Origin: Agelas oroides
Lineage: Eukaryota; Porifera; Demospongiae; Agelasida; Agelasidae
Direction of reading: 5' to 3'
DNA: 64,000 bases
Assembly (NCBI GenBank): GCA_949130485.1
Contig: OX422197.1
Location: 7,310,991 to 7,374,990, forward strand
The position numbers and the translations under genes were made by a program. Below, in pieces: positions 190 through 59,811 of this stretch; position 1 is the stretch's first letter, and each line of letters begins with the position of its first letter. The notes under the pieces are model-generated. The model made no database searches and was not told the DNA's origin. It saw only the letters and a program-made list of their open reading frames with translations.

Positions 190-8768
<8,579 letters not shown>

Positions 8769-20000: not shown

Positions 20001-23000
20001 AGCTATGTTCCTAGTCTTTGACCATGTCCCTAATCTTGTCCCTAACCTTGTACACAACCATTGCCTGTGGTACATGTAACTAAACACTGGGCCTAGTTCG
20101 CAGGCTCTCCCCATGCACAAACAACTGCAAGCGATGGAAAGCCCGGTCGGGCCTGGGAACAAGGCTAGCTACACAGTAGACATTCCCTGTCTCTCCCAGT
20201 GCCAGGGGTGTGGGCATGCGATCACCATGTTTGATCATGTCGGCAGCAACCCAGGAACAGTTAGTCCTGGGAGCCAATCGACACAAATGGTGCAGGGAGC
20301 CTCAAAGAGACTCCTAAAGGCTACTCGCCTGCAACTCCAGGGGATATGTGTCGTTGCTTTCTCAAGGCATACCACCACTCAAGACATATGCAAATGGCAG
20401 CAGTACATGGGAAGAAAGTCCACACAAGCAGTGCAACATTTACAAAATGTCCCCCACCTTTGCAGCATCCACGAACTTCTGGAGGTTGTTTCCACTCCTG
20501 TGCACAGAGTGGCCGGTGGTGAGCGCGGAGATAGCCTTGTCACACTGGTCTAGCAGGGTTGGACAGGTGGAGGGGGTCAGGCCGGCAATGGCAAAGAAAT
20601 CAAAGATGAAACTAAGTGGAGAGGAGAAGAGGAGGAGAAGAGATGGTATTAACTTTAGTAGCACCGGGAATCCAGTGATAGGTTGGACACTACTTCATAA
20701 CATTCTGTTGTGTAACTGAAATTCCTAGAAAAATAGTATTGGAGTTATCTTCTCATTTCAATTTAATCCTCAGTTTGTCGACTTTCCAATTTGTCAATTT
20801 ACACGGTCAAAGTGGGAAGCTGAAAATATGGCCAAGCTAGTGGGATTTTAAATTAACCTGTCTGTACATCTCTCAAGTATGAAAGAAGCTCATACAGTTC
20901 AACGTACAGGCCAGGTTTGACTGTACATCTCTCAGGTATGAAAGAAGCTCATACAGTTCAACGTACAGGCCAGGTTTGACTGTACATCTCTCAAGTATAA
21001 AAGCAGCTCGTACAGTTCAACGTACAGGCCAGGTTTGACTGTACATCTCTCAAGTATGAAAGAAGCTCATACAGTTCAACGTACAGGCCAGGTTTGACCA
21101 TCTCCTTTTTGCTTGCACCCTCAAACTCAACGGTATCCAACGCGTCCTCAACCGCCAGGAAGAACTCTATATAGGAGTTGAAGTGACGACAACCATAATT
21201 CTGGTCACAGGTTTGTGAGTAGCCCCATTCCCAGGCCTTCTCTGGGTCGAGTTTTTCATTGCTTGCCATTTTTGCAAGTGACCAAAACTGGAGCCAGGGA
21301 AGGCCTTGGGAATGAGGCTACTCACAAACCTGGAGCCAGGGAATGAGGCTAGTTTGTGAGAGCAACTTTACAAGTCGTAGAACATACCATGGAATTCTAC
21401 AAGACCCAAAGAATATAGCCATTAATACCACCCTTCATACTCATATTACATACGTTTTAAGTTTACGAGATCTTGAATATCATCCCCAGAAGCATCATCT
21501 AGATACCAAGAGGGTAGAAAGTTGTAGTGACATTGATAAAGGTGGGCTGCTCTAATTCACCGCTGTAACACAAAGTGTCAACGTGCTAGGGACATTTTCT
21601 ACCTTCGTCCAGGGTGCTCTGTTCTGTTTTCTTTGCTGTCAAGAGATGATGAATGTCGGCGATGCAGTGGGCAATGTCTGTTGAGGTCAGATCAAAGGAG
21701 GCGGAGTCCTCACACACTCTCTCCTGAGGAACAGGGGGTTCACACTATACCACAGTACATGCATAGTATTGGGTAGTCTCACAAGCCACACCCACTTTTG
21801 CAAAAAAGGGAAGGGCCTAGTGAATTGTGTATTCAAGCTGTGTCCCACTGGAATGCAATTAGCTGGATGTTACAACCAGATTTCAAATACTGCACTTTTG
21901 AAATACCTGTTGTGAATTGATACACTTCCTGAGAAGCAACTCCTGCCATAGCGAGAAAGACGTCCTGCCTCTCTGTCAATGTTTTTCAAAATCGTTATCG
22001 CTACTGAAATGGTAATGTAGTGTGTCGTGTGACAAAATACTGCAATGTGATTGGACCGCATGGTACAGCTTGTACACACATTTCGCAAGACCCTTCCTTT
22101 TTCTTTACAGAAGTGGGTCTGACTCATGAGACTTAAGTATAGGGCACCATAGTGACTGAGTTGCACACTATAGTATATATACTGAGTTACAAAGTATGGT
22201 AGACTTCAGTACATGTACACTGCTGAGTTAAACATTACAGGACATTGCACTCGGGAGCATGTCTTCTAGGGAGGATGGATTGTAAGCAAAGCTAGGCATC
22301 AAATGATTGTAGCCTCATTCCCAGGCTCTCCCCCTTCTTAGCGGGAAGAGCCTTGGAACGAGGCTAAATTAATGATTGCATGTGAGAGTTCCACTGTTAT
22401 CAACTCTTTGCCGACATTTGGACTGAATGCTTCAGTTGCAATTGGATGTTTTGATCAGCTATACACTTACAATGTTGTGTGCCTCATCAAGAATCACCAC
22501 TGCCCCTTGGATATCAATTCCATGCATCTGACGGGTCTATGAAATGTAAACAAAGTGAACTATCAGAACAAACACTAATGTCACATGACCACAATATTAC
22601 AATGAGATTAAGGTATGCACTTGGTCTATCAATCACTCCAGGCTGAATCAGATACTTAACACCAGTCTGGGAACGAGGGCTATACCCACCGTCTTTTCCC
22701 CACAGAGCAAGCTACCACTGGGGTATATAATTTTCATCCTTCGTTTTCAACACACCTTGATATCTAGAATGTAGTTGTAGGGCATGAAGATCACGTCAGC
22801 ATCAGACTTCAACTCACGAGCCAGGTAGTAGGGACACATTCTACAGGTTGCAAATGATATTATACTGTGTTGTGACACTGTGTGACACCATGTAACACTG
22901 TGTGACACTGATAAACTGGACTATATTCTATTAGAACAATGATCACCCTGCCACTTATCATCTAGCACCATAACGACTTGTAACATCATGTAACACAATA

Positions 23001-27159: not shown

Positions 27160-28149
27160 CTAGTCGTATCGCCTGGAATTGCATTGCCATGGGAAAAATC
27201 CAACTGCACATACTTCTACTTCTTCCATAAGCCTTCTTGTGTCTCCATCCAGATGTAAAATATGCTTTCGGAGACATTCCGCTTTCTCATTATGGTGGTG
27301 GGCAATCTCACTGGCTGTTGCAATCTTGATAGTTTTTATGCTAATACTGTCATTCTCGGTCTGTAGGTCTTTTTTCTTACCAAGTAAATCATTAGCAAGT
27401 GAGGTCATGATTGCTGCATCATATAACAGGTCATTGCAAGCAGTAAAATGCTCTTTCATTATCCACTTATTGACAATATAAAGAGGTCCAACCAAAGCAA
27501 AAGGTACACCTCCCGAACGTTTACGAACTTCATTGCATCGATCAAGGTTCCAGCTAGATGTATCATGTTGATACACATCTGGTGCCCACTCTGTGAGTTC
27601 CATTTCTACACCGAAGCAGTAGTCAAGGAAGGTGTAATGGACAAGCTCAGCTGCTCCTCTCCTCAAATCCTCGGCTTCTCTCAGGAGCCAGCAGTAGACT
27701 TCCCTGTGAGGAACTGCAGTGGGCCAGTCATCAAGACTTCCCTGCAAGCCGCTTAGACCATGCCTACTGAGAGCTCTTTGTACAGCCCTCATTTCCGTGG
27801 AGAGTCTTGAGACATTTTCTGGAGTGTTGGAAGGCTTATCAAAGTAGTCATCAAACTCAAAAAGGAAGATACCCAAAGTTGCAGTAAATATCCACTGTCG
27901 GTCTTCTTCCTCAGTTGCATGGTACTCAACACCAATATTACTCATTTTAGCAACAAGGTCAGCGATGTTCAATTCCTCAATGTATCGAGGATTGAGTTTT
28001 AGAGCAGAGCAGTGGTTTTGCAACTTGTCTTTGAGTGACGAACTTACTGAAGAAATTCGCAATTTTGCCGAATCGAGCGCTGAGCGAGCATATCGAAGGG
28101 GGTGCTGAAGCACCAAGGACTTGATGGGAACTTCAACGAACTGAGACAT
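27160..28149 (-). CDS. class I terpene synthase (terpene cyclase), intact, 329 aa, intronless
   Basis: A single open frame without introns, starting MSQFVEVPIK; this ATG is shared with the copy at 43720. Class I terpene synthases ionise prenyl diphosphates with a Mg2+ cluster and cyclise them. Seen: the aspartate-rich motif FEFDDYFD (D100, D101, D104); an NSE-type motif NDLLGKKKD (N253, D254, G257, D261), in which the usual Ser is Gly and Glu is Asp; a candidate diphosphate sensor in VRKRSGG (R209); and a C-terminal WQCNSRRYD resembling the RY motif. Length and motif spacing fit bacterial-type and animal (octocoral and sponge) enzymes. Flanking genes are heavily intronic, so the lack of introns is notable. 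It is divergent from the MFS transporter at 29174. A TATAAAA box lies 62 bases upstream of the ATG. The product cannot be predicted from sequence. Confidence 0.88.
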   Translation of the reverse strand: MSQFVEVPIKSLVLQHPLRYARSALDSAKLRISSVSSSLKDKLQNHCSALKLNPRYIEELNIADLVAKMSNIGVEYHATEEEDRQWIFTATLGIFLFEFDDYFDKPSNTPENVSRLSTEMRAVQRALSRHGLSGLQGSLDDWPTAVPHREVYCWLLREAEDLRRGAAELVHYTFLDYCFGVEMELTEWAPDVYQHDTSSWNLDRCNEVRKRSGGVPFALVGPLYIVNKWIMKEHFTACNDLLYDAAIMTSLANDLLGKKKDLQTENDSISIKTIKIATASEIAHHHNEKAECLRKHILHLDGDTRRLMEEVEVCAVGFFPWQCNSRRYD

Positions 28150-28204
28150 GTCGTGAGTGAGCTGCAACTAAAACAGTGAAGTGAAATGTTGTGCTTACTT
28201 TCTA

Positions 28205-28211
28205 TTTTATA
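28205..28211 (-). promoter_or_regulatory. TATA box of the intact terpene synthase
   Basis: TATAAAA on the minus strand, 62 bases upstream of the ATG. The second synthase copy has TATAAAA at 43658-43664 at the same distance, in a conserved context (CTCCATGTATAAAAT). Confidence 0.65.
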
Positions 28212-28227
28212 CATGGAGCAGCTGGAT

Positions 28228-28346
28228 TAGCTGATTCTTAAGGCAGGATGCACCCATTAGCTGATTCTTAAGGCAGGATGCACCCATGCACCCATGCACC
28301 CATGCACCAATTAGCTGATTCTTAAGGCAGGATGCACCCATGCACC
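28228..28346. repeat. short tandem repeats upstream of the terpene synthase
   Basis: Three copies of AGCTGATTCTTAAGGCAGGA followed by TGCACCCA, with an inner CATGCACC run. A single related stretch (GGGTGCATCCTGC) lies at the same place upstream of the second synthase copy, so the expansion is specific to this copy. Confidence 0.8.
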
Positions 28347-28383
28347 CAGCAGGATGAAACAAAATGACAGCTGGTCGGGGTAT

Positions 28384-28640
28384 GGCACGCCGTATGTAAC
28401 AAAATTAAAAACGTCATTACGTTCGTTCCAGCCATGGACGTCACGTCTCCCTTTGTAACAAAAATAAGAAATGCACCATTACGTAACGTCATTGAGACGA
28501 ACGTAACGTCATTGAGACGAACGAACGTCATTGAGACGTAACGTAACGTCATGCATTTTTGTTTCAAAGGGCGACGTGACGTCCATGCATGCTGGAACGT
28601 AACGTAATGACGTTTTTAATTTTGTTACATACGGCGTGCC
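28384..28640. mobile_element. MITE-like foldback in the divergent promoter interval
   Basis: GGCACGCCGTATGTAACAAA at 28384 pairs with its complement ending at 28640. The arms are about 90 bp. The centre has repeats of ACGTAACGTCATTGAGACGA with many ACGTCA-type motifs. Confidence 0.85.
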
Positions 28641-28666
28641 TTACAGTGTACTTGTTGCAACTCCCT

Positions 28667-28768
28667 CATGGATGTTCTCAGGCTTTATGAGACTGGCCCA
28701 TTGTGTTTGCAAACACGATGGGCCAGTCTCAGGCAGTCTGACTAAAGCCTGAGAACATCCATGCTCAA
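28667..28768. repeat. hairpin upstream of the terpene synthase
   Basis: CATGGATGTTCTCAGGCTTT pairs with AAAGCCTGAGAACATCCATG, and an inner stem GAGACTGGCCCA pairs with TGGGCCAGTCTC. Related sequence is repeated at about 43430-43600, upstream of the second synthase. Confidence 0.85.
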
Positions 28769-29173
28769 CAAACCTAGACATGTCGTGAGTGAGCTGCAAC
28801 TAAAACAGTCGACGCGCGCTAAACAGTGAAATTTTGTGTTGGAACAATAATACTGCCAGACCACTTGTGCCGTGTAGCCGGAGACCCGGTGAAAGCGCGG
28901 CATCCCCCAACAAAATGACAAGGGGGAACATTATAGGTCCCCGCGATATCAATCGAACACCTGGCCCTCGGGGTCACTGTGGGAAAAATTTGGTCGGGGT
29001 CAAGCTACCACTAAGTGCGGTTTGTGCGAGCCTTGAAGGGTCATGGCCTATGGTTGTCTGGCGAAGCCATACCCGAGCGCGCAACCTATGGCAGCAATCT
29101 TCGAATCGTATAACGAAACTCAGTACCCCAGATTGCAGACAGACTGTGTACTTGTTGGTGACAACGTGACACC

Positions 29174-32100
29174 ATGGTGAAGATCAGGCTGTGTTGCCAA
29201 AGGACAAGGCAAGACCATGAAAGTTCTTCAAGGACCAAGGCCACTCCTCTACCATGGGGCAAGGTGAACAGGATTCATGCTCAATGTGTACATCTCTGTC
29301 TACTGTCTATTCATCCGTAGGTTCTTGTTCTGTCTGCTGTGCTGTTTGTTGATCAATTTGGTAAGTCGCTGTAGCTGGCCCAGAGGAGGGAGGATGCGAT
29401 CATATGATAGCTACAATTAACAAGATCAAGAAGTGTAGGTACCAAGCTAAACAAAGTCGTAATGGGTGTGATGGGCATGCAAGGTTTTCAACAAAGCTGA
29501 AGTTAAAAGGACATGTGACTCACCTAGTGCTGAACCGGTGAGTGATAGTAACCAAAATGCTACAGCTTAGTAGAAGATCCTATATACCTGTCATGCATGA
29601 CTTAGTCCAAAGAGTGATGCTTGCACCCACGATTCTTGCCGTTGGGAGTATCTCAGAGTTCACTAATTGTCACTATGACAGACGTCATGTCCTCCCTCCT
29701 CTGCTTCTTGCCTTTGCTTGCTACTAGATGCCACCCAAGCATTTCAGTTATGCACTTTATCACTCTATCCAGGAACCAATATGCTTTTTCCGTTCCTGCC
29801 ATTTATGATACATGACTTTTTCCCTGACCTAAACAGACAGGAAATTGGTAAGAAACTAGTATCACATTGGTAAGAGTTTTTACCTGGCAACGAAGGGTTG
29901 CTGGCGGCCTAGTGAGTAAAGTGCTGGACTGTGGTCCCAAGTTCAAGTCCCAGTAACAGTAAAACTTTTCCTGGCTCGGGTGCATCCAGCCCTATCTAAT
30001 AAATTGGGAAGGTTTTTTACCTATATGTCATTTTGAGGGAGTGTTAAACTGTTGGAATATCGTAACACTGGTCTTATTATTCTCAGCTGTAAGGTGGTTG
30101 TATGTGGTGCATATAACAGCATGTCTATTTGAGCTCTATACAACAAATGAAGAAGAAGTTTTTTTGTTACCAATTTGAAATCGGCAAACTCTGTGCTGAT
30201 GTTTCGACTAAATGTTTCAGTTGTTGCTTGGACCATTCAGTTGAAACATCGGCAAAAAGTGTTCAATTTCAAGTTGGTAATAGAGAACCTTATTCTTCAT
30301 TTAGGCATGCAGGAGCCAACTGAGCAGAGAAGCTGCTGAAAATATAATTTGCTACTCTGGAAACTGAGTTAGCTAGCTGTGCATGTGGAATCTACACAGA
30401 ATAAACTTTGTACAGAGTAGGTATTTGTAATCAAACCTGCTGCAGATATCTCAGGGCGAAAATGTTTAGTACACACTCGCCTCATACCCAGCCCAATCTG
30501 AAAATCAGAGAAAATGGCTTGGTATATACACTGTAAAAACGTGGAGGTTGGTTAAATGTCATCTCAGTTGCCGTCTGGAGTGGTCCAGGTGGTGACCCAC
30601 CTTCTTTTGCCGTGCTTTAGGGTAAAATTCCTTGTCCAGTCAAGAATTCCAGCAAAATACTAGTTGCAAATGAAATTCATTTAGTAATTGCATGTTTTAG
30701 TCTGGCCTTAGTGCAGGAACCAGGCTAGTCTATCAAGCTAGACCATCTCTCACCCTCCAGAAAAGTGAGAGAGGGTCTAGCAGATGTTATTAGTTCACAG
30801 CTTGTTTAATCTGCAACCTTAAAACTGCACAAGTATTGGTCTTACATACTGAAGCCAAGGTGTTGCTACTGTCTCAAAATGGAACAGTAGGATCTGATTG
30901 GTCAGCATCTCATGCATACTAATAACATCTGCTAGACCCTCTCTCACTTTTCTGGAGGGTGAGAGATGGTCTAGCTTGATAGACTAGAACCAGGCTATTG
31001 TATGCTTATGCCAAAAAGGGCTGGAATCCTTGACTCTGTATTATTCATATACTTATGGGCAGCATTCATGTATTGCTGCATAAGTATTCATACCTTATTG
31101 GAACTTTGATTACACAAAGTCTACACTGTGATAAAAGTGGGAGGCCAAGGTCCCTCATCCTGGTTAAAAGTTTTTCCAGTGTATTCACTGTTTGCACATC
31201 TGCTTAATTTTTTCACATTCCAGAAGTTCTGGATGATATTATGTGATCTCCACATGTGGTGACATCAGCCATGTGTATGTCGGAAATATTGCCATATATT
31301 CCACATGAGCTTTATGCACTACTAACCCATGCACAAAAGACAAATTTCAAATGGGCTTGGGAATGAGGCTAAAATACATGTACACATGATCAATCATGAC
31401 TCTGGAAGTTTCTCTGTGCCATACCCAGGTCAGAAGGCTGGGTACTTGGGCAGTGCCTACTTTATTGGTAACTTTGCTGGCAGTATGACATGGGGGTGGC
31501 TGTCGGACATTCAGGGTAGAAGACCGGTGATGCTACTGGGAGTTTGTGGCACCATTTTCACAGAACTGCTGTTTGGGTTTTCCCAGAACTTTGGTTGGGC
31601 TATTGCAGGCAGGTTTCTGTGGGGGCTGCTGAATGGAAATCTTGGTGTTGTGAAGACTTATCTTTCAGAAGTAAGAGTAAGATATAGTGATGGTAAGCTT
31701 GTTAGTTATGTCAACAGTTTTCTGGTCCCTATGCATTTATTCTGTAAGTGGTGAAATCTAGAATTTGTAATTTGTTTTTCTTTATCTGTGTGTATGCATT
31801 AGATTTGTGACGATACTAATCAGGCAAAGGGATTTGCAATTATAGGGACTAGTTCAGGAATCAGCAGACTTGTGGTTAGTTAAAAACGTTACTGTGTGTA
31901 CCTTCCTATGTGGACACAGGCTATTTATTGTATATTGTATTTTGCATTGATACAGGGGTCAGTTGCTGGTGGTTTCTTAGCTCAACCAGCTAGCAAGTAT
32001 GCTGTCTTGCAGGTGCCTTTCTTCTGCCAGTTTCCATATGTATTGCCCTGCCTGGTTGGAGCAGGCATTAGTGTTTTAAGTCTTATTGGTAAGTATATTT

Positions 32101-34349
32101 GTCTGTTGGGTTCACTCAATGTAGGCATTGTCCCAGTTTTAATGTCGGCCAATCCTAATCTTCGACAGTTGCTTTTGTGTTCCTTGATGAAACACTACAC
32201 ACCAAGAAGAAAAAGAAGAAAAGCAGGCGAGTCAGTGATCAGTCAGATTGCTCCCAGAGTTCAGACATTGAAATGAAGCAACAAGGCAGTGGAGAGAGAA
32301 CAGAGACAGATGACTCTGAGACTGAAATGAATGGTACTGCCAGACTGATTGCAGAGAGTGACATAGATAGCCAATCAGATTTCGAGATTGTTTCAGCAGA
32401 ATCATCAGATGTTGAACTTTTGGTGCGAGTTCCACAGCACAATAAACGCAGGAGGTGGATAACTAAAGTTAAAAATGCTCCTTCAAAAGCTGCTGAAAGG
32501 GCCAAAGAGGGAGTACGTCATTACAGGCAGCAGTGTACATCGTGTGTAATGTGGTGCACACAGTGCAAATGTGAATGTTCTGTAGAGATGACAAAATCAT
32601 ATGCGGTGGAGAAATCCAAGGCTGGGGTTGCTAAACTGAAGATGATGCTCAGTCTATTACAAGATCGGAGAGTGCTTCTATCAACTGGCATCTATGGACT
32701 TTTAGGCTTCATCACCATCATAAGCATTGAGGTGTGTCAAATGTTACACTGTGACAGGTATACTTGGCAAGATATACACAGGCTTGGAGGAGGGTGGAGG
32801 GAGTCCTACAACGACTGGCTTGCTTGGTTGTGGACTACTGTTTGTTCAGCAGAACATAGTAGCGAGTTGTATCTGCAGCAAGTTCAGCATACAACTCCCT
32901 ACTTTGTTTGACAGGTCATTTTGATACCTTATACCAACTCAATTCCTACTAGTTGCACATTGCAATGCTCTTCACTGGTAACGAAGTAAGTTTGTTGTAA
33001 GTTCAAAAGCTACAAAATCTATTTCAAGACCTCACTGTAACCACATAGGTATTTCCACTACTCATGGTGACCTATCATGAACACGGAGGCTATACTATGG
33101 ACAGCAGTGAAATTGGTGTTGTGCTGATGGTTGTTGGCATATGTCAGCTCCTCTGGCAGGTAATGTTTCACCACACATGATAAGTATATGATGGAGTTTC
33201 AGTGGATGGTGTATAATTGTTTCACCACACATGATAAGTATATGATGGAGTTTCAGTGGATGGTGTATAATTGTTTCATTTGTCTTGGCACATTTGCAGC
33301 TCAGCTTGTTCTCCCGACTTACAAAATGCTTGGGTTATCGATGGACGTTTAGATTGGCTATGTTGATGTTTGCAGCAGCTTGTGTGTTACTGCCATTCTC
33401 CAACCAAATCACTGGACCTGTGCCGGTGCCTACACACCCAAATGATACCTTCTCAGGCAGTGGATCTGGAAATGGATCCGGAAGTGGGTTTGAAAGTGGA
33501 TTGCTGAACGCCATCGACTATTGTGGAAATGATTTAAACAGTACAGCAGTATCTGTCAATGAGAATTCAGTGAAACGGATTCCAGTGTACATCTGGGTGG
33601 TCGTGATCGGAATCTATGGATTTTTGGTGGCCGGCAGGTGTGCTATTGGCCATTGCATTGCTTATACAAAACGCATGCATTGTATATAGTGTGCACATAC
33701 AGTTAAACCTTTTACAACAGCAAGTGGAGAACAACTCGGCCTTGATCAGCCAGGCAATTCCACAGCCTATACCTCATGATATTAATTTGGATAAGCAGTC
33801 TTCACTGTTTTTATGCATTGTTGTATGGATTTAATCAGATACAAACTATTCCATGTACTAGGCAATTATAACACGCACACACAAACACACAACACACGAC
33901 ACACACACACACACACACACAGAGTGACATCTATCACCTGTGATATGGTGTTTATTAGCAATTCAGCACTGGTATGTTAGTCATGCATGTCATGGTGAAG
34001 AACACCCAGTCTATATCATTATGACACATCCTGCAGCCGGTGACAAGGGGTACAGTGAATGGCATCGGGCAGTCTCTAGCTGCATTGGGTCGTGCTGTAG
34101 GACCCATGACTGGAGCACCACTGTTTGCCTGGACTGCTGACCACGGTATACACCAAGTTGTTTGTGTAATGAATGTGATCGTTAACTTACACTTTCCCAC
34201 TGTATCCAGGTAAAAGCTGGCCAGTGAACTACCACTTTACCTTTGACTTTATGGCTGTGTTAGCACTACTGACAGTAGCTATTAGTCTGTTACTCCCCAA
34301 GACTATTGAGAAAAAGAGAGACACTGTTGAAAGTGCAAAGCACAACTAG
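29174..34349 (+). CDS. MFS transporter A, ZIF-like type, 12 exons, 653 aa
   Basis: Exons: 29174-29263, 29321-29360, 29773-29847, 31429-31670, 31803-31874, 31956-32088, 32169-32731, 33049-33159, 33300-33637, 33923-33971, 34037-34145, 34210-34349. All phases join. The product resembles plant zinc-induced-facilitator-like and fungal major facilitators. Seen: FPFLPFMIHDFFP in TM1; motif A GWLSDIQGRRPV at about 91-102; GGFLAQPASKY; DETLH before the central loop; and RGTVNGIGQSLAALGRAVGP in the C-terminal half. The central cytoplasmic loop is unusually long (about 165 residues): Lys-rich, then Ser/Asp/Glu-rich, then a Cys cluster. A Gly/Ser-rich loop with NDT and NST sites lies in the second half. 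The substrate is unknown; the neighbouring terpene synthases make terpenoid export a reasonable guess. The exon at 33923 directly follows a CA repeat. Confidence 0.87.
29898..29960 (+). repeat. tRNA-like segment, possible SINE head
   Basis: GGCCTAGTGAGTAAAGTGCT resembles a pol III A box and AAGTTCAAGTCCC a B box, at tRNA-like spacing, inside an MFS-A intron. It does not look like a functional tRNA. Support is motif-level only. Confidence 0.4.
30145..30302. mobile_element. foldback element in an MFS-A intron
   Basis: AAATGAAGAAGAAG at the left pairs with the right end TTCTTCATTT, with an inner pair around GATGTTTCGACT. Same family as 16236-16401. Confidence 0.7.
30726..30986. mobile_element. 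foldback element in an MFS-A intron
   Basis: TAGTCTATCAAGCTAGACCA pairs with TGGTCTAGCTTGATAGACTA. The arms are about 68 bp and nearly perfect, around a 130-bp loop. Confidence 0.9.
33165..33273 (+). repeat. 54-bp direct repeat, 2 copies, in an MFS-A intron
   Basis: Copies start at 33165 and 33219 and are nearly identical (GTTTCACCACACATGATAAG at each start). They are absent from the corresponding MFS-B intron. Confidence 0.9.
33870..33922 (+). repeat. CA-rich microsatellite forming the 3' splice site of MFS-A exon 10
   Basis: A CA-rich run ends in CACACACAG, and that AG is the acceptor of the 49-nt exon 33923-33971. MFS-B has a longer CA run in the same position. Confidence 0.85.
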
Positions 34350-34519
34350 ACTGAAATGTATTTATCAATTAGTACAATTATGATTATTTATTTATTTAAA
34401 TTAATTCTCAGTATTAACATTATTTATTTATCATTCTAATCCCAATTATCTACACTACAAGTTTACTAGCCTCGTTCCCAGGCCGTTCCCGGCTCCAGTT
34501 TTGATCGCTTGCAGTATAA

Positions 34520-35313
34520 AAACGGGTCACTCTAAAAGTAGGAACGAGGAAATGAGAAATGGGAAATGAGGAAATGGGGAAATGGGAAGAAGGTACATTG
34601 CATTTCACTCAGCAAACTGCCGATGTTTTGTTACTGCTGTGATGAGAGAGTCAATGTCCATCCATGCACTCACTGAGAGATCATCTTTGCCTGACAGTTG
34701 GCACAGTCTGCAAGCTAGCTCTATGTATAAGTTCTTCACTTTGGCAGCTTGTTAGCTTTCTTGAAGTTTGTTGAATCTGTGAATTGTTCCAACTTCATAC
34801 AAGTAGTCATTTTGAGGCTTCTTCATGCAGTTGCTTGCATTGTTATTGATTTTGTCTCACATACAGCACTATTATTTATGACAGCATGTACTATACAAAT
34901 GTAATGCATCTATAATGGTGTTCACAAAATGCCTGTTTGCAGTCATTCATCACAGTGGATACACACACCGGCTCTGTAGAGAATATAATCACTGTCTGTG
35001 AATTATAGTTTGCATGCACTGAGTGGAGGAGGGAATGTACAACAGCATGACTGAGACAATTCTGTTTACTGTCTTAGATATTAGCCTATGCACACACTCC
35101 AGTTCTATTTCCATGCTACTGTTAGTGCTGATTTATTCTTCCTGCTTTTCTCACTGAGGACTCTATAGGCCTACCTCCTCTAGCTACTCTGCACAACATG
35201 TACACTCCACTGTCCTCTTTTACACTGACTCACCACTTGTGCGTTGCAGTTCCATTTCCCCATTTCCTCGTTTCCCATTTCTCATTTCCCATTTCCCGTT
35301 CCTACTTTTAGAG
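34520..35313. mobile_element. inner element with GGGTCACTCTAAAAGTAGGA termini
   Basis: The left arm at 34525-34590 (AAATGGGAAATGAGG-rich) pairs with 35251-35313. The interior of about 650 bp is non-coding. A poly-C run follows at 35318-35340. The MFS-B 3' flank (42476-42577) lacks this element, so it is a later insertion. Confidence 0.8.
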
Positions 35314-35338
35314 TGACCCCCCCCCCCCCCCCCCCCCC

Positions 35339-35641
35339 CCGAGGGGAAGGCCGGCCTGGGAGAAAGAGTCACGTGCGTGACGTCAGGTAGACGTGAGGGT
35401 AGACGTGAGGGTAGACGTGAGGGGGGGCGGTGCCCGACGAAGAATCTCGAGGTCCTTCCTGTAATATCTTGTCCAAGAACTTGAGACTGTAACATTCGAA
35501 ATACAGCGTCAATACAGCTCGTTGTTTGGTAGACTCGAGGCTGATCAACGCAAAGTTTGTGAGTTACAACGATCGGGCACCGCCCCCCTCACGTCTACCT
35601 GACGTCACGCACGTGACTCTTTCTCCCAGGCCTTCCCCTCC
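35339..35641. mobile_element. inner foldback, GAGGGGAAGGCC family
   Basis: The left arm has GTCACGTGCGTGACGTCAGG and the right arm has its complement near 35600-35625. A fragment is also present at 42533-42577 after MFS-B. The loop resembles 3245-3360. Confidence 0.8.
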
Positions 35642-35647
35642 GTTTTT

Positions 35648-36152
35648 ATAGCCTCGTTCCCAGGCCTTCAATCACAGCTAACGCGGTGGAAGGCCTGGTA
35701 AAACTCCTATGTAGAATGACGTCAGGTGGACGTAAGGGTACGGTGGACGTAGGACTTTTGGAGGCGTGGTACTTTCAGTCTAGGAACTAAGCTAAAGCAG
35801 GCGCTATCGCGGACAGGCGTTCAACAACGACAGAGCAGTACATGTCCCTGACAGATGCATAAAGGACGTCTGAAGCCAGGGAATACATGTACACAAAAGG
35901 ACATTTATTCCCTGGCTTCACGGACGTCCTTTATGCATCTGTCAGGCGGCATCCTGAACCCGAGAAGTAACACCAGACTGTTCTGTCGTTGTTGAACGCC
36001 TGTCCGCGATAGCGCCTACTTTAGCTTCCTAGACTGAAAGTACCACGCCTCCAAAAGTCCTACGTCCACCTGACGTCATTCTACGTAGGAGTTTTACCAG
36101 GCCTTCCATGATCCACCGCGTTAGCTGTGATCGAAGGCCTGGGAACGAGGTA
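35648..36152. mobile_element. inner foldback with about 240-bp arms
   Basis: Both halves contain CGCGGACAGGCGTTCAACAA or its complement and GCATAAAGGACGT or its complement. The ends are CTCGTTCCCAGGCCTTC and its complement. Pairing is close to complete, apart from a short asymmetric stretch near 35950. Confidence 0.9.
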
Positions 36153-36522
36153 GTCTCGGAACCAGACCCTCGAAAAATCGAAAAGGAGGGTCTGGTAAAC
36201 GGGGCGGGGTGGAAGTGTACACTGCGGAATGTTAGGAATTTTATTAATTGTTGAACCTTCCGTAGCCAGTAGAGCTCTCTGAAGAACCAGACACTCGCAG
36301 AAGCGTTCTAATCTTTCCCGCTTGGTGTTCACAGCTTTCTGAAACGAAGCTAAACGCGAAGACAGCTCTCGTGCGGTTAGTATTTCTAATAAACGCACAT
36401 CAGAATGCTAATCAAAAGCCAATCGGAAGTGCGCCTGCATACCGGGCGCAGTGTACACTTCCACCCCAGCCGATTTACCAGACCCTCCTTTTCGATTTTT
36501 CGAGGGTCTGGTTCCGAGACTA
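36152..36522. mobile_element. inner foldback, TAGTCTCGGAACCAGACCC family
   Basis: TAGTCTCGGAACCAGACCCT at the left pairs with AGGGTCTGGTTCCGAGACTA at the right. A family member with a larger interior lies at 58996-59811. Confidence 0.85.
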
Positions 36523-36908
36523 GGAACGAGGCTACCGTTTTTATACTGCAAGCGATCAAAACTGGAGCCGGGAACGGCCTGGGAACGAGGCTAATGCACC
36601 AGTCCAGTTCGTTCCCAGGCCATGAGCGGATATCGGGATTGGCCTGGGAACTAGCTCGAGTGCACGTGCGCGGTCCAAAAAATGGGTAGCTTCGTTCCCA
36701 GGCCACCATTTTGGAGACAGCGATATAGCCTGGGAACGAGGCTAAAGAAAAATCGTGATTTGAGCCGCCACGCCTTTCATGTCGTGTCATGATGATTACG
36801 AAGTGTTGACCAGTGAAGAAGTAATGGGATTCCGCGTCAGCAACCTATACACTCTAGACAGCTTTACATGTGTGTGTGTTGGTGCATAGTTGGTGACAGT
36901 GTGACCGC

Positions 36909-39900
36909 ATGGCAAAGATCAGCTTGTGTGGCCGGAGGACAAGGCAGAGTTCTTCAATCCCCAAGGCCACTCCTTTTCCTTGGGGCAAGGTGAACAAGAA
37001 TCCAGTGGATGATTTCTGTCTGTCTAGTTCTAGTCTGAGTACTCTCAAGAACCCACTGAAACCATTACTTAATATTGGTCTTGCTGTCTATCCATAGATT
37101 CTTCTTCTGTCTGCTGTGCTGTTTGTCAATCAATTTGGTAAGACAGTAACATGAGATTTGAGGTGGCTGTCCTCTAGTCTTGTAATCCATGCTCCTTGCT
37201 TGTCACACAAGCATAATTTTCGATTTACCACTCCATCCAGGAAGCAATATGATATTTCCGTTTCTACCGTTTATGGTACATGACTTCTTCCCGGACCTAA
37301 ACAGACAAGAAATTGGTAAGAAACTAGTTGAACACATTTCATATTCAGGTAAGAGGCTGCATTTTGTGCAGTTATAACACAGTGCTAGGGATTTATGGTA
37401 GTAAACCAACCGAGTCTGAGGGCATGAGAACATGGTTATTTACCTGAAGCATAAATTCCTGTTGTTATCATTATAACACATCTTTACATGTGCAATGACA
37501 TCTTGACATGCTAACAATGTTATTTACACACAACTGTATGTATTCTTCACTTCACCTTATCCGTGCGATCATTTTGTGATTACGTCATTCACTTCCGGAT
37601 GGCATTAGCTGCTGTGTGTACGGGTGTGTGCGAGGAGGAGTGAAAGGAAGTAGTGTTTGGTTGTTTCAATTCTCCAAGGACCCAAACTTGTGGAGACTGT
37701 AGAAAAAGCTATCAAAAGGCAGAAATGGTAGGCAGTGGCGTAGCCAGGTCACAGACGACGCCCGGGCACTGCATTTGGTCGGGGGGGGGGGGGGGGGGGG
37801 GGCGGGCTGGGGGCATGCTTCCCTAGTAAATTTTTGCATCTTAGAGGTAGCTACTCAGATTGTTCTTGAGACTATTTTTTAAATGCCGTCGGTCTTGAAT
37901 CGGGAGAAGTTCTGACCCATGACTTCGGCATACGTGCGCGCATGCAGTACAGGTCTTCACCAGTATTAAACGCCAAACGTGCGAACAGTGAGGTTATGAG
38001 AGCGTAGGAAACTGCGTCATTGCAACATGATAGCTACACTACGAAAGTACGATGTTCAACTGTTTTCCGGACGCTGACGCCCGGGCCCAGGCCCGGGTGG
38101 GCCCGGGTTTGGCTACGCCACTGATGGTAGGCAACAGCCTATATAAGATTTGTGGATGTAAGTTCGTTACTGGTAGGTAGCTACAGCTGCATGATAAAAG
38201 CGTTTGGATAGTTTATCTGCTTAGTGGTGGGCTAGGATTGCTTCTACATTATGGGAATCCTCATAGGCGTAGGAACCGGGGGGGGGGGGGGGGGGGGGGC
38301 ACCGGGGGCACATGCCCCCCCAAGTTTTCATAAATTGTTATATAAATTGCTCACTACTCTATGTGTAGTTTTAAACTGTGCCCCCCCAATCAAAAAGTCT
38401 TTCCTACGCCACTGATCCTCATACTTTCGCTGTTTGCATCATACACTGCTAGCCTGCTGAAAAACACCGCACCCTTCCCTCCTTTTGCAATTTGCCATTC
38501 GGAACTTATGGCATAATCTCAAAATGATCGTGCGTGGATAAGGTCTACAGTAACAGGTGGGTATTGTCTTTCATAAATAATAATTATACTGATAGGAAGT
38601 TGTAGTTTCATATACACAGGTACCACGCATTATCTATTACCTAATACCTGCAACTATAGCCTAAAAGTATAAGTACATCGAGAGGAAATTATGAGCCATG
38701 CAATTTTCCCTTGTACTCCTGTGGAAAGGACAAGACCACAACCCCTATGACAAAGTATACTAGGTAGGATATATTGTTCTGTGTCCATGATATACCCAGG
38801 TCAGAAGGCTGGGTACTTGGGAAGCGCCTTCTACATTGGTAACTTTGCTGGCAGTATGACATGGGGGTGGCTGTCGGACATACTGGGTCGAAGACCGGTG
38901 ATGCTACTGGGAGTTTGTGGCACGATTTTCTCAGAACTCCTGTTTGGGTTTTCCCAGAACTTTGGTTGGGCCATTGCAGGCAGGTTTCTGTGGGGGCTGC
39001 TGAATGGAAACATTGGTGTTGTGAAGACTTATGTCTCAGAAGTAAGGTTGCTCTGTAAGCCTGTACCACGTAGTCAGTAGTTCTACTACAGCAATATAAT
39101 TTATATGCATTCTTGTGCTATACGTTATTATAGCGAGAAATTTATTTATTCGTTTAAATAGATCTGTGATGATACTAATCAGGCAAAGGGATTTGCAATC
39201 ATAGGGACTACTGCAGGCGTCAGCAGACTTGTGGTTAGTGATATCGCTATGAGACATGTTTTGTCACTGTACCCTCCTTGCCATATTTAGCTACTAAGTT
39301 ATGGCACTGTCTCTATCATTTTTTCAGGGTTCAGTTGCTGGTGGTTTCTTAGCTCAACCAGCTAGCAAGTATGCTGTCTTGCAGGTGCCATTCTTCTGCC
39401 AGTTTCCATATGTACTGCCCTGCCTGGTTGGAGCAGGCATTAGTGTTTTAAGTCTTATTGGTAAGTACATTTGTCTGTTGGTTCGCTCAATTGTCCCAGT
39501 TTTAATGTCGGCCAATCCTAATCAAGTATTATCTTCGACAGTTGCTTTTGTGTTCCTTGATGAAACACTACACACCAAGAAGAAAAAGAAGAAAAGCAGG
39601 CGAGTCAGTGATCAGTCAGATTGCTCCCAGAGTTCAGACATTGAAATGAAGCAACAAGGCAGTGGAGAGAGAACAGAGACAGATGACTCTGAGACTGAAA
39701 TGAATGGTACTGCCAGTCTGATTGCAGAGAGTGACATAGATAGCCAATCAGATTTCGAGATTGTTTCAGCAGAATCATCAGATGTTGAACTTTTGGTGCG
39801 AGTTCCACAGCACAATAAACGCAGGAGGTGGATAACTAAAGTTAAAAATGCTCCTTCAAAAGCTGCTGAAAGGGTCAAAGAGGGATTACATCATTACAGG

Positions 39901-42303
39901 CAGGAGTGTATATCATGTGTAATGTGGTGCACACAGTGCAAATGTGAATGTTCTGTAGAGAAGACAAAATCATATGTGGTGGAGAAATCCAAGGCTGGGC
40001 TTGGTAAACTGAAGATGATGCTCAGTCTATTACGAGATCGGAGAGTGCTTCTATCAACTGGCCTTTACGGACTTTTAGGCTTCATCACCATCATAAGCAA
40101 TGAGGTGTGTCAAAGGTCATACTGTGACATGTATAGTTGGCAGTTTTTTTGTACAATCAATGGACCACATCTGCCTGGAAAAAAGGCAGGCCTAGATATT
40201 ATGCAGTCTCCCACACTGCAAGACATGTTTTACTCAACATTAGCTCTGCTGTGATGACCGACCAGGAGATGGGGACTGCTATCTCATGCAAGAAATGGTG
40301 TCAGGTGGCTGGTCTTATCCGTAGTAACATCTCAAAAGTAGCATCTCTCCATGTAGCTGTCCCTCTCAGTTTTAAAATTGTTGCTACAAACAATCATAAA
40401 CATTATAAGTTATCAAATGCTATGTGCACATGTGCTTGTGTAGAAGCAGCAGTATGCTTTGCTGATGAATGATATTGCCTTCTTTTTTTAACTATAAGAG
40501 CTGGTATGAAATAGGTCACATGGTGTTGGTTTTGTAACCTTGGACTCTCTAAATCCTTTCTTCATATAGGTATTTCCACTGCTGATGGTAACATATCATG
40601 AACACGGTGGTTACACTATGGACAGCAGTGAAATTGGTGTTGTGTTGACAGTTGTTGGCATATGTCAGCTCCTCTGGCAGGTAGGAATAATTCTCACATG
40701 TGCAAGGAGTGTATGATTCCATGTTGCATTGATGTTAGTGGGTAGGTAGATCATTTCAGTGGATAATGCAGCAGGCTGTCAGGTATATTGTGGCCCTCTT
40801 GTATACCCTTTGCAGCTCACTTTGTTCCCTCGAGTTACAAAATGCTTGGGTTATCGATGGACGTTTAGATTGGGAATACTGATGTTTGCAGCAACTTGTG
40901 TATTACTGCCATTCTCCAACCAAATCACTGGACCTGTGCCAGTGCCTACACACCCAAATGATACCTTCTCAGGCAGTGGGTCTGGAAATGGATATGGAAG
41001 TGGGTTTGAAAGTGGATTGCTGAACGCCACCGACTATTGTGGAAATGATTTAAACAGTACAGCAGTATCTGTCAATGAGAATTCAGTGAAACGGATTCCT
41101 GTGTACATCTGGGTGGTCGTGATCGGAATCTATGGATTTTTGGTGGTTGGCAGGTGTGCTATTGTGTATTTTCATGTGCATAGCTGCTGTATATAGTTCA
41201 GACCCTTGAAGCATTATAATTATGGAAGCAAGCACCGCAAACATCTAAACTACCTAGCTTTTTCCAGCCTACACTCCATGAGATTTTTGGTGCATGGTCG
41301 TTACATAATTGGTATGACTTTGTAATGTGCAAATTCCATGGAATATATATGCCTCCTTAAATTAGTGCATTAGATTAAATGCACATTGAATGTGCTATGG
41401 AAATAAAAATCACATTGAAATGACCAACCAAGCCGCAGTGGCTTGGTTGGTCATTCCAATGTGCTTTTTGCACAATGAATAAGCAACACAAGAGGGCAGT
41501 CCACTACTGACTGAGTTTTCATATCACACACTGAATCAGGTGTTCACTGTCAGGTTGCCTTCGGTTATTCACGGACACCTGTACAAACTTGCAAGGAGAT
41601 GTACTTCGCAAGATATTTCATTATCCGATGATTGGAATATGGAATTTGTCCAGATTTCTTTTTCTTTTTGCAATACAAATCACATGATAGAAATCAGGTC
41701 TATAATCATAATTTCCACACATACACACCTACACATCTACACCACACACACACACACTCACACACACACACACACATACACACACACACACACCTACACA
41801 CACACATACACACACACACACACACCTACACACATACACCACACACCTACACACATACACCACACACACACACTCACACACACACACACTCATACAGAAC
41901 AACATCGCTCACTAGTGATATGGTTCTTATTAGCAATTCAGCACTGGTATGTTAGTCATGCATGTCATGGTGAAGAACACCCAGTCTATATCATTGTGAC
42001 ACATCCTGCAGCCAGTGACAAGGGGTACAGTGAATGGCATCGGGCAGTCTCTAGCTGCATTGGGTCGTGCTGTAGGACCCATGACTGGAGCACCACTGTT
42101 TGCCTGGACTGCTGATCACGGTATACACCAAGTTGTTTGTGTAATGAATGTGATGGTTGACTTACACTTTCCCACTGTATCCAGGTAAAAGCTGGCCAGT
42201 GAACTACCACTTTACCTTTGACTTCATGGCTGTGTTAGCACTACTGACAGTAGCTATTAGTCTGTTACTCCCCAAGACTATTGAGAAAAAGAGACACAGT
42301 TGA
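36909..42303 (+). CDS. MFS transporter B, tandem paralogue of A, 12 exons, 643 aa
   Basis: Exons: 36909-36989, 37098-37137, 37241-37315, 38800-39041, 39162-39233, 39328-39460, 39542-40104, 40570-40680, 40816-41153, 41898-41946, 42012-42120, 42185-42303. Internal exon lengths equal those of MFS-A; only the first and last differ. The product keeps the motif A segment, the long Lys/acidic central loop and the Gly/Ser-rich NDT/NST loop, and is nearly identical to A across most exons. Relative to A, a 2-nt deletion near the end (about 42293) shifts the frame, so B ends in KKRHS instead of the longer A tail. All splice sites and phases are intact, so it looks functional. Same orientation as A and directly upstream of the broken terpene synthase copy. 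Confidence 0.86.
37735..38125. mobile_element. MITE-like element with GTGGCGTAGCCAGG termini
   Basis: GTGGCGTAGCCAGG at the left pairs with TTGGCTACGCCACTG at the right, enclosing GACGCCCGGGC repeats and a poly-G run at about 37782-37802. It lies in an MFS-B intron. Confidence 0.75.
38265..38420. mobile_element. MITE-like element with GGCGTAGGAA termini
   Basis: ATAGGCGTAGGAACC at the left and TTCCTACGCCACTGAT at the right, with a poly-G run near the left end and C-rich tracts inside. Family members also lie at 51222-51773 and 57645-58008. Confidence 0.7.
40156..40225. repeat. dispersed repeat fragment
   Basis: Third copy of the CAATCAATGGACCACATCTG-type repeat, also seen at 6506 and 16681; here in an MFS-B intron. 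Confidence 0.6.
41418..41458. repeat. short perfect hairpin
   Basis: AATGACCAACCAAGCC pairs with GGCTTGGTTGGTCATT across a 7-base loop in an MFS-B intron. Confidence 0.8.
41700..41894 (+). repeat. CA-rich microsatellite before MFS-B exon 10
   Basis: About 190 bases of CA and CATA/CCTA repeats end a few bases before the acceptor of exon 41898-41946. It matches the position of the shorter run in MFS-A. Confidence 0.95.
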
Positions 42304-42475
42304 AAGTGCAAAGCACAACTAGACTGAACAAACTGAGAGAATGTATTTATCAACTAGACTGAAATGTTTATCAATTAGTACTATGATAGAATTATTTATT
42401 TAAATTAATTCTCAGTATTAACATATTTTATTTATTTATCATTCTAATCCCAATTATCTACAGTACAAGTTTACT

Positions 42476-42577
42476 AGCCTCATTCCCAAGCCGTTCCCGC
42501 CTCCAGTTTCTGATCGCTTGCAGTATAAAAACGGAGGGGAAGGCCTGGGAGAAAGAGTCACGTGCGTGACGTCAGGT
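42476..42577. mobile_element. MITE remnant shared with the MFS-A flank
   Basis: It starts TAGCCTCATTCCCAAGCCGT and continues through CAGTATAAAAACGG straight into GAGGGGAAGGCCTGGGAG, without the element that splits these two parts at 34520-35313 in the A copy. Confidence 0.8.
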
Positions 42578-43657
42578 AAATTAATTAACATTGTTGAATT
42601 TAGTACTGGAAGCACACACTTCCTCTGGTGCAGTCATTCACAACTATATATAAATATATATACAACAGGCATGCACTAAATCATCATCAATTTCCTTTTG
42701 CAGGTCACTAATTGTGCATGTTGCAACATCAGCAGATTGCGGAGTCCAGGTCAGCTGTCAGCAAAATTATGCACCTTGGTGACTGCCATTAAAGAATGGA
42801 AGACACCAGCATGCACTCAGAGCCTTGTCTATGCTGACAGTGGGTCCTTCTAGCAGTGTATACATGATTCAAGAGTGTTCTCAACACACCGTAATGGGTG
42901 CCATCGTTTGTATGACTAAGTTCTTGAACCTTATCCAAAATCCACCCAGTCTGGTCCAGTCCGGGTTTTAATGAGGGCCCTGAAAACCCTGGGATATGAT
43001 TGGAAAGTAAACAGTTTCAGCACAACCTTCTAGGTTCAAAGCATGTGACTGCAATGTCACTGCATAGTAAAAATGTTGGGAGATGCAAACTGAAAATGTT
43101 AGTGGGTGTCTAGGTACCATGTGTCATAATATATAGCTTTCATTAATTAAGTTGTATACAAAAGTAATAGCTAATTCTCTAAAATCAAACATGTTTTATC
43201 ACTGAATAGCATAGGCACATGACGTTAAATCCACGCACTAAAATCAAACATTAGCTAAAGCCACTACTTTTAATAGTTAAATGAACATTTTTGTGTTTCA
43301 TAAATACATTCCAGGAAGCAGAGGTGCCGCTATACTAATTATTTGTGGTGCCCACAACCACAATGGTCTAACAAAAACCTGAGAACATCTGTGAGTGAGT
43401 CACTATCTATACAAGAGGAAGCAAACACAACAGGCCAGTCTGACTATAGCTTGAGAACATCCATGAGGAAGTTGGAATAAGTGCACTTCCATCTCCTGAC
43501 AGGAAGCAACCACAACAGGCCATTCTGACTACCATGAGAACATCCATGAGGGAGCCACTAGAAGTACACTTATAAGTCTCCTGAGAGGAAGCTGCCTTAC
43601 TGTGTTTCATCCCGCTTGGTGCAAGGGTGCATCCTGCATGAATCCGGCTGCTCCATG

Positions 43658-43664
43658 TATAAAA
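43658..43664 (+). promoter_or_regulatory. TATA box of the second terpene synthase copy
   Basis: TATAAAA, 62 bases before the ATG at 43720, as in the intact copy. Confidence 0.6.
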
Positions 43665-43719
43665 TGAAAAGTAAGCACAAAATTTCACTTCACTGGTTTG
43701 GTTGCTGCTCACTCACGAC

Positions 43720-44709
43720 ATGTCTCAGTTCGTTGAGGTTCCCATCAAGTCCTTGGTGCTTCAGCACCCCCTTCGATATGCTCGTTCAGCGCTCGATTCG
43801 GCAAAATTGCGAATTTCTTCAGTAAGTTCGTCACTCAAAGACAAGTTGCAAAACCACTGCTCTGCTCTAAAGCTTGATCCTCGATACATTGAGCAATTGA
43901 ACATTGCAGATTACGTTGCTAAAACAAATAATCTTGGTGTTGAGTACCACGCAACTGAAGAAGAAGACCGACAGTGGATATTTGCTGCAACTTTGGGTAT
44001 CTTCCTTTTCGAGTTTGATGACCACTTTGATAAACCTTCCAACACTCCAGAGAATGTCTCAAGACTCTCCACGGAAATGAGGGCTGTACAAAGAGCTCTC
44101 AGTAGGCATGGTCTAGGTGGCTTGCAGGGAAATCTTGATGACTGGCCCACTGCAGTTCCTTACAGGGAAGCATACTGCTGGCTCCTGAGAGAAGCCGAGG
44201 ATTTGAGGAGAGGAGCAGCTGAGCTCGTCCACTACACCTTCCTTGACTACTGCTTCGGTGTAGAAATGGAAATCACGGAGTGGGCACCAGATGTATATCA
44301 ACATGATACATCTAGCTGGAATCTTGATCGATGCAATGAAGTTCGTAAACGTTCAGGAGGTGTACCTTTTGCTTTGGTTGGACCTCTTTATATTGTCAAT
44401 AAGTGGATAACGAAAGAGCATTTTACTGCTTGCAATGACCTGTTATATGATGCAGCAATCATGATCACACTTGCTAATGATTTACTTGGGAAGAAAAAAG
44501 ACCTATAGACCGAGAATGACAGCATTAGCATAAAAACTATCAAGATTACAACAGCCAGTGAGATTGCACACCACCATAATGAGAAAGTGGAGTGCCTCCG
44601 AAAGGATATTTTACATCTGGATGGAGATATAAGAAGGCTTATGGAAGAATGGGAAGTAACTGTGGCTGGACTTTTCCTGTGGCAGTACAATTCCAGGCGA
44701 TATGAATAG
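43720..44709 (+). pseudogene. second terpene synthase copy with one in-frame stop
   Basis: It has the same length as the intact gene at 27160-28149 (990 bases) with no frameshift. The intact CAG codon (Gln263) is TAG here at 44506-44508, just after the NSE-type motif NDLLGKKKDL. A truncated product would have 262 residues, with FEFDDHFD and the NSE-type motif present but without the last helices and the RRY end. By eye the two copies differ at about 28 residues; about 12 of these lie in the last 66, after the stop, which suggests relaxed constraint. Start, TATA box and 5' flank are conserved. A truncated enzyme, recoding, or an assembly or allele difference cannot be excluded. Confidence 0.85.
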
Positions 44710-45389
44710 TGAAACAAACTGTCCCATGATGTATATATTTCCTCTATAACTGCATCTTTGTACTTTGTCAATATGTGCACATGTATATCAGCACAAATGT
44801 TGTTGCTAAGATCTTTATTTTTTTTCTTTCAGAAGTCCTATTTGGCTACATTACTGGCATTTCTACCACAACTATGTAACCAAGCCTTTTCCAGAAATGA
44901 TAAGTTTCTCAACATTTTGATTTTAAGGTCTTCAGAGGACCTGTTTGGAAGCATTCCTTGAACTTCGTGATGTCTACACCACACACATGCAACTGAGATA
45001 TGGTTGAAGTAACCTAAATGTTTTTACAGTGTGGTGGCTGGAACTGAGGGAGTGGACACAGTTGCATGACTCATCAGAGTGTCATGTATGCTGCCACACA
45101 ACCTGCATCCAGGTACTTCACGAAGGAGGACCTAAATGTTTGTACAGTGTGCTGGCTGGAACTGAGGAAGTGGACACAGTTGCTTGACTCATCAGAGTCT
45201 CATGTAAGCTGCCACATAACCTGCACAGTTGTTCAACAATTCCAGGCGATATGAATCTTATTTAATTGGGCTACAGTTTCACTCAAACAGAGTAGGTCTA
45301 AAAACAACAGTATAACTAAAACTAATTGTATCAAAATCAGTCTAGTTACATCTACAATGTCCTGACAAATGTATGCCCACAAATTAGTG
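44710..45389. other. intergenic with direct repeats after the second synthase
   Basis: About 95 bases at 45013-45108 are repeated at 45131-45226 (period 118). A 21-bp copy of the synthase 3' coding end (44687-44707) recurs exactly at 45236-45256. No gene was seen. Confidence 0.7.
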
Positions 45390-58336: not shown

Positions 58337-59001
58337 TAGTCTCGTACTAGGGACATGGGTGAGGAGCAGCAGGGCAGTGCGTGAAGCAGACTACCGGTAG
58401 TCTAGTCTCGTACTAGGGACATGGGTGAGGAGCAGCAGGGCAGTGCGTGAAGCAGACTACCGGTAGTCTAGTCTCGTACTAGGGTCACGGGTGAGGAGCA
58501 GCAGGGCAGTGCGTGAAGCAGACTACAGGTAGTCTAGTCTCGTACTAAGGTCATGGGTGAGGAGCAGCAGGGCAGTGCGTGAAGCAGACTACCGGTAGTC
58601 TAGTCTCGTACTAGGGTCACGGGTGAGGAGCAGCAGGGCAGTGCGTGAAGCAGACTACCGGTAGTCTAGTCTCGTACTAGGGTCACGGGTGAGGAGCAGC
58701 AGGGCAGTGCGTGAAGCAGACTACCGGTAGTCTAGTCTCGTACTAAGGTCACGGGTGAGGAGCAGCAGGGCAGTGTGTGAAGCAGACTACCGGTAGTCTA
58801 GTCTCGTACTAGGGTCACGGGTGAGGAGCAGCAGGGCAGTGCGTGAAGCAGACTACCGGTAGTCTAGTCTCGTACTAAGGTCACGGGTGAGGAGCAGCAG
58901 GGCAGTGTGTGAAGCAGACTACCGGTAGTCTAGTCTCGTACTAGGGTCATGGGTGAGGAGCAGCAGGGCAGTGTGTGAAGCAGACTACCGGTAGTCTAGT
59001 C
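58337..59001. repeat. 66-bp tandem repeat, about 10 copies
   Basis: Units start TAGTCTCGTACTAGGGTCAC and end AGACTACCGGTAGTC. Copies differ at a few positions (ACG/ATG, GCG/GTG). The array runs directly into a foldback whose end is also TAGTCTCG. Confidence 0.96.
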
Positions 59002-59811
59002 TCGGAACCAGACCCTTGCACGTGGAGGAGGAGGGTCTGGTAAACTTGCATACATAAAAATTTGAAGTCTGTGGAATTTCGGCAGGATGAATCTGATTGG
59101 TTGATGACTGTGTATTTACATTTCTGCCCACGAAGGCAGGTGTTCGTGTAATAACAACGTGGCAAATTTGATTGACAGGAGACCAACGGTTGATGCAAGA
59201 ATCGAAGCGACCATCGTTCACCGAGCTTAGATATTCCCCAGCGAATCTCAAGCAGCTGGAAAGCTGTTATGAAAGGGATAGAAGTCTTCAGTTTCACTAC
59301 CCGGGCAGTGGAACTGTGAAAGTCCCTCTGCTACGGTAGTCTGCGTTCATCAGCGAATTTTGGTGCAAGGAAGTCACGGAGGCAGACGTAAGTCCATTGT
59401 AGTTGTTGTAAGCCCTCTGGAGGCGCACATGCTTGATGTAGCTGAGGCATTCACAACAATGGATAATAAGTTATGCTCATTTCGGTAGCCAACACCACAG
59501 TTCTGGGCTGCCCTGCTACTTCGCTGTTTAAATTGTCTGCCAAAAGTAGCAGTGACGCTCTCCAAGGTACTATCAAACAATCGCTGCTTCATTACTAGTA
59601 TCTTCACTGGCAGCGACAGTCTACAGTAGCTAATTGAGCACATGCATATTCGCACACAATCAACACCTTCAATTATCGTTTAGGAAGCCTGCTGGGCGGG
59701 GCCTGGGAACGAGGCCTGTAAGGAGGCCATATCCAACAGTTTATTTATGCAATATAGTTTACCAGACCCTCCTTCTCCTCTGCGTGAGAGGGTCTGGTTC
59801 CGAGACTACCG
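58996..59811. mobile_element. foldback, TAGTCTCGGAACCAGACCC family, with long interior
   Basis: The left end 58996-59046 pairs with 59757-59811 (GTTTACCAGACCCTCC through GGTTCCGAGACTA). The interior of about 700 bp shows no recognisable gene. The right end runs into GAGACTACCGGTAGTC, the end of the 66-bp repeat unit. Confidence 0.8.

Follow-up and report, generated by a model that had tools for sequence, protein, structure and literature searches.

Terpene-making animals raise the question of how they avoid poisoning themselves, and whether the genes of maker and exporter are grouped in their genomes as they are in microbes. A locus in the sponge Agelas oroides bears on this question. It lies in a window of 64,000 bases (the whole stretch of DNA analysed, positions 7310991–7374990 of contig C15) in a genome of 259,295,671 bases and 141 contigs; the contig carrying the window has 8,715,278 bases. 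Two putative terpene synthase copies here flank two MFS transporter genes in the order T(-) M(+) M(+) T(+) (T, synthase; M, MFS), and the coordinates given for all four in a preliminary description proved correct. Our preferred reading, held with modest confidence, is that this is a small sponge terpene locus in which an intronless class I synthase with its own TATA-like box lies beside MFS transporters of the drug-transporter kind, the linked pair having been duplicated and the transporters putatively serving in export. One synthase and both candidate transporters are intact here and lend themselves to direct testing.

The left-hand synthase copy, TPS1 (27160..28149, minus strand), is a single intact exon encoding 329 aa. 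It matches the Pfam family PF19086 (Terpene_syn_C_2) with 28.3 bits (E 1.8e-6), above the cut-off of 23.7, and the right-hand copy, TPS2, does so with 26.8 bits over the part that precedes its stop codon; the terpene synthase profile match that the preliminary description had asked for is thus present in both copies. A genome search with PF19086 matches TPS1 and TPS2 and nowhere else, and one with PF03936 finds nothing. An Asp-rich motif of the DDxxD/E type, DDYFD, lies at residue 100 of TPS1, followed by EVRKRSGG at residue 207, which we take to be the diphosphate-sensor Arg region, by the second metal motif NDLLGKKKD at residue 253, and by an RY dimer near the C terminus (RRY at 326–328), and this is the motif order of class I synthases. 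Compared with the pattern (N,D)Dxx(S,T)xxxE, the second metal motif keeps the Asn and has Gly for Ser/Thr and Asp for Glu. Gly is unusual at that place of the NSE/DTE motif and is said to be tolerated by some plant enzymes. The closing Asp is not unusual, as it also occurs in the coral synthase PcTS1, as NDLYSYQRD, in the accessible part of its description (PMC11864185). TPS1 is likely a member of the class I terpene synthase family, as profile and motifs indicate and as the preliminary description had proposed for this intact frame, and it would ionise a prenyl diphosphate (GPP, FPP or GGPP) to give a terpene hydrocarbon. Comparison of TPS1 with PDB sequences gave no match up to E 10, NCBIfam gave one meaningless match far under its cut-off, and PHROGs gave none. 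Two AlphaFold predictions are mostly helical, but their mean pLDDT values are 34.2 and 38.8, and a Foldseek search with the second of these low-confidence models returned 39 matches, of which even the best had E 1.2 and none was a terpene synthase.

The two transporter genes had been described as tandem MFS genes, and both can be modelled as complete genes of 12 exons with no internal stop, using paralogues on contig C13 as a guide. MFS1 (29174..34349, plus strand; 653 aa) has exons at 29174-29263, 29321-29360, 29773-29847, 31429-31670, 31803-31874, 31956-32088, 32169-32731, 33049-33159, 33300-33637, 33923-33971, 34037-34145 and 34210-34349; MFS2 (36909..42303, plus strand) encodes 643 aa. Each gene has 11 introns, all of the GT..AG type, and the exon order is identical. 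Ten of the 12 exons are equal in length (the first and last differ), and the two proteins share 92% identity across 643 codons. The Pfam MFS_1 profile matches the whole of MFS1 with 124.8 bits and one exon frame of MFS2 with 48 bits, and the closest relative of MFS1 in the PDB is MFSD10 (6s4m, E 7e-11). Motif A is present in the MFS copies as GWLSDIQGRRP or GWLSDILGRRP. GPxxGG, the antiporter motif C of MFS drug:proton antiporters, is altered to GSVAGG in both MFS1 and MFS2, and the two C13 paralogues that were aligned with them keep its GP. A crude hydropathy scan gave nine segments in each protein, where 12 are usual in the family, and both proteins have a long central loop. MFS1 and MFS2 may export the terpene or a derivative of it from the cell, or load it into a vesicle.

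The start codons of TPS1 and MFS1 are divergent and separated by 1,024 bases, in agreement with the 1 kb first reported. No other gene had been seen between the four, and this also stands: none of 10 frames picked from the spacers has a Pfam match over the cut-off (one has a match far under it, which we take as noise), and six of them lie in the spacer between MFS1 and MFS2 (34350..36908), which is repeat-rich from 34.5 to 36.9 kb and in which no gene was recognised. The left neighbour is a frame resembling the ARCH domain of the RTEL1 helicase (20443..20694, minus strand; PF23109, 36.1 bits, cut-off 27), with a second RTEL1-like frame under the Pfam cut-off at 19138-19371 on the same strand; this is an ordinary housekeeping gene. 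Farther left are UBR4-like frames (4371-5823) and two ubiquitin-like/IBR frames (9708-12818). On the other side, beyond TPS2, no Pfam match over the cut-off came from 15 frames selected between 46 and 59 kb (reaching 58.3 kb) and scanned singly and unspliced, a procedure that could miss a gene of short exons, and one of the frames to the right of TPS2, run against the PDB, gave no match there.

A further observation concerns the cysteine-protease family of the same genome. In a looser look at 10 of its loci, one exon reads CGASY as against the catalytic CGSCW, and we take CGASY, with Ser for the catalytic Cys, to be a mark of silicateins, by which the genome is likely that of a siliceous sponge. 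The silicatein-like reading comes from that single exon, beside which other loci have Cys, and a stricter pattern search covering 20 cysteine-protease loci found ordinary Cys active sites alone.

Self-similarity within the window is far above chance for both gene pairs. The synthases lie in a 1,077-base inverted repeat (93.1% identity), and the transporters match each other in seven direct blocks, each 53 to 996 bases long and 88.6 to 94.7% identical. Synonymous divergence is similar in the two: by NG86, with intervals from 2,000 bootstraps, dS is 0.161 (0.106-0.226) for TPS1/TPS2 over 328 codons and 0.141 (0.105-0.180) for MFS1/MFS2 over 643 codons, so that the intervals overlap. A Biopython check gave 0.168 (NG86) and 0.121 (YN00) for the synthases, and 0.146 and 0.136, respectively, for the transporters. 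Both pairs are also constrained, with dN/dS below 0.5 (0.16-0.43 for the synthases, 0.18-0.38 for the transporters). The similar dS values fit a co-duplication of the linked synthase and transporter; alternatively, the pairs may have arisen in two independent events at about the same time, or gene conversion may have acted. A single tandem duplication would not yield T(-) M(+) M(+) T(+), and at least one further rearrangement is required. Under co-duplication, a linked synthase-MFS pair would have been duplicated within one period and then rearranged, leaving a synthase in opposite orientation at each end.

It is quite possible, if not probable, that the synthase and the transporters are chance neighbours, a putatively working terpene synthase adjoining unrelated general MFS transporters in a region prone to duplication and rich in repeats. 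Paralogues elsewhere in the genome speak for this. The sole further synthase relative found is a dead copy on contig C3 (10418751-10420692), which has no related MFS gene nearby. Counting the two in the window, five close MFS relatives turned up in the genome; the other three are on C13, with no synthase beside them, and one distant match lies on C2. MFS is moreover a large superfamily, with 113 first-look PF07690 candidates in this genome, of which nine were scored, and repeats and synthase fragments abound in the region. As for tailoring genes, the frames scanned near the locus and the genome-wide searches for P450 and prenyl diphosphate synthase genes revealed no P450, prenyltransferase or other such gene near it, and no second pathway enzyme was recognised in the scanned frames beside the linked synthase and MFS genes. 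Among the 96 P450 matches listed, the nearest on C15 is at 4.73 Mb, about 2.6 Mb from TPS1 at 7.34 Mb, and of the prenyl diphosphate synthase matches, two on C2 exceed the cut-off and one on C9 falls short of it. Against chance stand the similar age of the synthase and transporter duplications and the fact that two members of this MFS group of five share a locus with the sole intact synthase.

Because no further pathway gene was recognised and the paralogues elsewhere are unlinked, the name of biosynthetic cluster given to the locus in the preliminary description can be used only tentatively, although physical linkage and similar copy ages do speak for it. We consider it rather doubtful that the locus is a minimal animal terpene cluster in the full sense, that is, a synthase and a dedicated MFS transporter duplicated together and kept under selection, with no oxidases, and corresponding in an animal to fungal and bacterial clusters of synthase plus exporter.

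The second synthase, TPS2 (43720..44709, plus strand), 91% identical to TPS1, is also a single exon, with its ATG at 43720 and one frame running through to 44709 save for an in-frame TAG at 44506-44508. The preliminary description was right that a second copy is present, but did not mention this stop, which stands in place of a Gln codon of TPS1 and lies 66 codons short of the end. As it stands, TPS2 would give 262 aa, including an Asp-rich motif (DDHFD, residue 100) and losing the RY end behind the stop; DNA identity to TPS1 is 95% over the 262 codons ahead of the TAG and 88% over the 66 beyond it. Judging from these frames, a full-length enzyme could come from one synthase copy only, TPS1; TPS2 would have acquired its stop codon later and may now be dead or dying.

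Upstream of both copies, the resemblance continues. An identical TATA-box-like TATAAAAT, read by eye, lies 55–62 bases upstream of the TPS1 start codon (28204..28211, minus strand) and in front of TPS2 (43658-43665); the C3 relic is preceded by a similar TATATAAAA, likewise read by eye. The 1,077-base inverted repeat covers some 80 bases in front of the start codon, the TATA-like box among them. Farther out, homology is interrupted by stretches that do not match and extends to 28710 and 43421, where an element common to both (28645..28710, minus strand, and 43421-43487) is 85% identical. Because the TATA-like box and upstream sequence are common to the synthase copies, copying at the DNA level is likelier than fresh retrocopying; a retrocopy origin of the window synthases, tried as an explanation, is not favoured, since box and leader are common to all three copies.

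The synthases of this sponge genome form an intronless family that includes dead copies, and one might ask whether the family is simply declining, with TPS1 perhaps a late survivor that has no current role. Besides the TAG in TPS2, decay is visible in the C3 copy, which has a frameshift, a transposon-like insertion of about 1 kb and FDGHFD for DDYFD, so that DDxxD is lost, and which differs from TPS1 with dS 0.49 over 257 codons; an intron had been considered in this copy and was rejected when the sequence showed these defects. Between TPS1 and MFS1 lies what is left of the 5′ end of one more synthase copy (28764..28809, minus strand; 46 bases, 87% to TPS2, E 8e-11), and a weak match of 18 bases to the synthase 3′ end (45237..45254, plus strand; E 0.039) is possibly another. 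The frame and motifs of TPS1 are intact, however, and dN/dS between the copies is well below 1, and we think a survivor without a role improbable. Least credible of all, and very improbable, is a bacterial or symbiont gene or an assembly contamination: the synthase frame is indeed intronless, and the PF19086 family is typical of bacteria and fungi, but the frame sits within a contig of 8.7 Mb, next to genes that have introns (11 in each MFS gene, with the UBR4-like and RTEL1-like frames near), which upholds the initial assignment to an animal genome, a decayed copy lies on another contig, and scans that reach only close relatives confirmed none of 46 and 11 pattern matches in bacterial and archaeal genomes and found no pattern match in viral contigs.

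Among known systems, MFS1 and MFS2 presumably resemble the plant ZIFL exporters. With MFSD10 (6s4m) they have in common the MFS_1 family and the signature GWLSDIQGRRP; from MFS drug transporters they differ in having Ser for the Pro of GPxxGG and a long central loop. Type I terpene synthases from marine sponges have reportedly been described by Wilson et al. 2023 (PNAS; cited in PMC12685057), and terpene cyclases and clusters of octocorals are said to have been described by Scesa 2022, Burkhardt, and Grayson 2025. Like the marine sponge type I synthases (Wilson 2023), TPS1 would be a sponge-encoded class I synthase. In the accessible part of PMC11864185, the octocoral cyclases are also class I enzymes of animals and carry an Asp-rich, an NSE(D)-type and an RY motif, and the structure of the coral PcTS1 is PDB 8ZWZ; in that of PMC12685057, cembrene B synthases of octocorals are colocalised with oxidative-enzyme genes. 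In contrast to the octocoral clusters, the window locus has transporters and no recognised oxidase, and its motifs are DDYFD and NDLLGKKKD. A search of open-licence papers, which is no proof of absence, found no linkage of a synthase with an MFS gene in an animal. Sponge genomes also contain bundles of biosynthetic genes, among them oro for alkaloids, which share with this locus the linkage of such genes; as far as the accessible part of their description goes (PMC12833800), those bundles were identified through conservation across species, whereas the window locus was examined in one genome, and the main text of that description uses neither the word transporter nor the word MFS. Both sponge class I synthases and octocoral clusters that include oxidative enzymes are already on record, and any novelty of the A. 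oroides locus may be confined to the linkage of its synthases with MFS copies of like age.

A MITE-like insertion with inverted ends, recognized by reading the sequence by eye, lies at about 28380–28640 of the window, between the intact class I terpene synthase copy TPS1 (27160–28149, minus strand) and the first MFS transporter copy, MFS1 (29174–34349, plus strand), and it falls within the upstream region that TPS1 has in common with the second synthase copy, TPS2 (43720–44709, plus strand). The MFS paralogues on contig C13 of the same genome (loci L016–L020, at 2.976–3.006 and 3.260–3.280 Mb) lie amid repeated long frames of up to 1,259 codons, a family with a start region in common, around YYVKPSEAE. 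Elsewhere in this genome, exons similar to cathepsin L/silicatein form dense arrays on C11 (0.396–0.436 Mb) and C4 (0.288–0.303 Mb), and P450 exons are arranged as a tandem array on C16 (5.995–6.063 Mb).

The right part of the window carries two satellite arrays. One consists of ten copies of a 66-base unit (58337–59004); in the other (60323–64000), which extends to the window end, a 106-base unit is repeated about 35 times at 97%. To the left lies a large inverted repeat (1941–2613 and 3645–4317), perhaps a transposable element, whose 673-base arms are 97% complementary and about 1 kb apart. Two adjacent long open frames (9708–10664 and 11769–12818) encode IBR domains and an N-terminal ubiquitin-like domain, a layout that resembles that of parkin.
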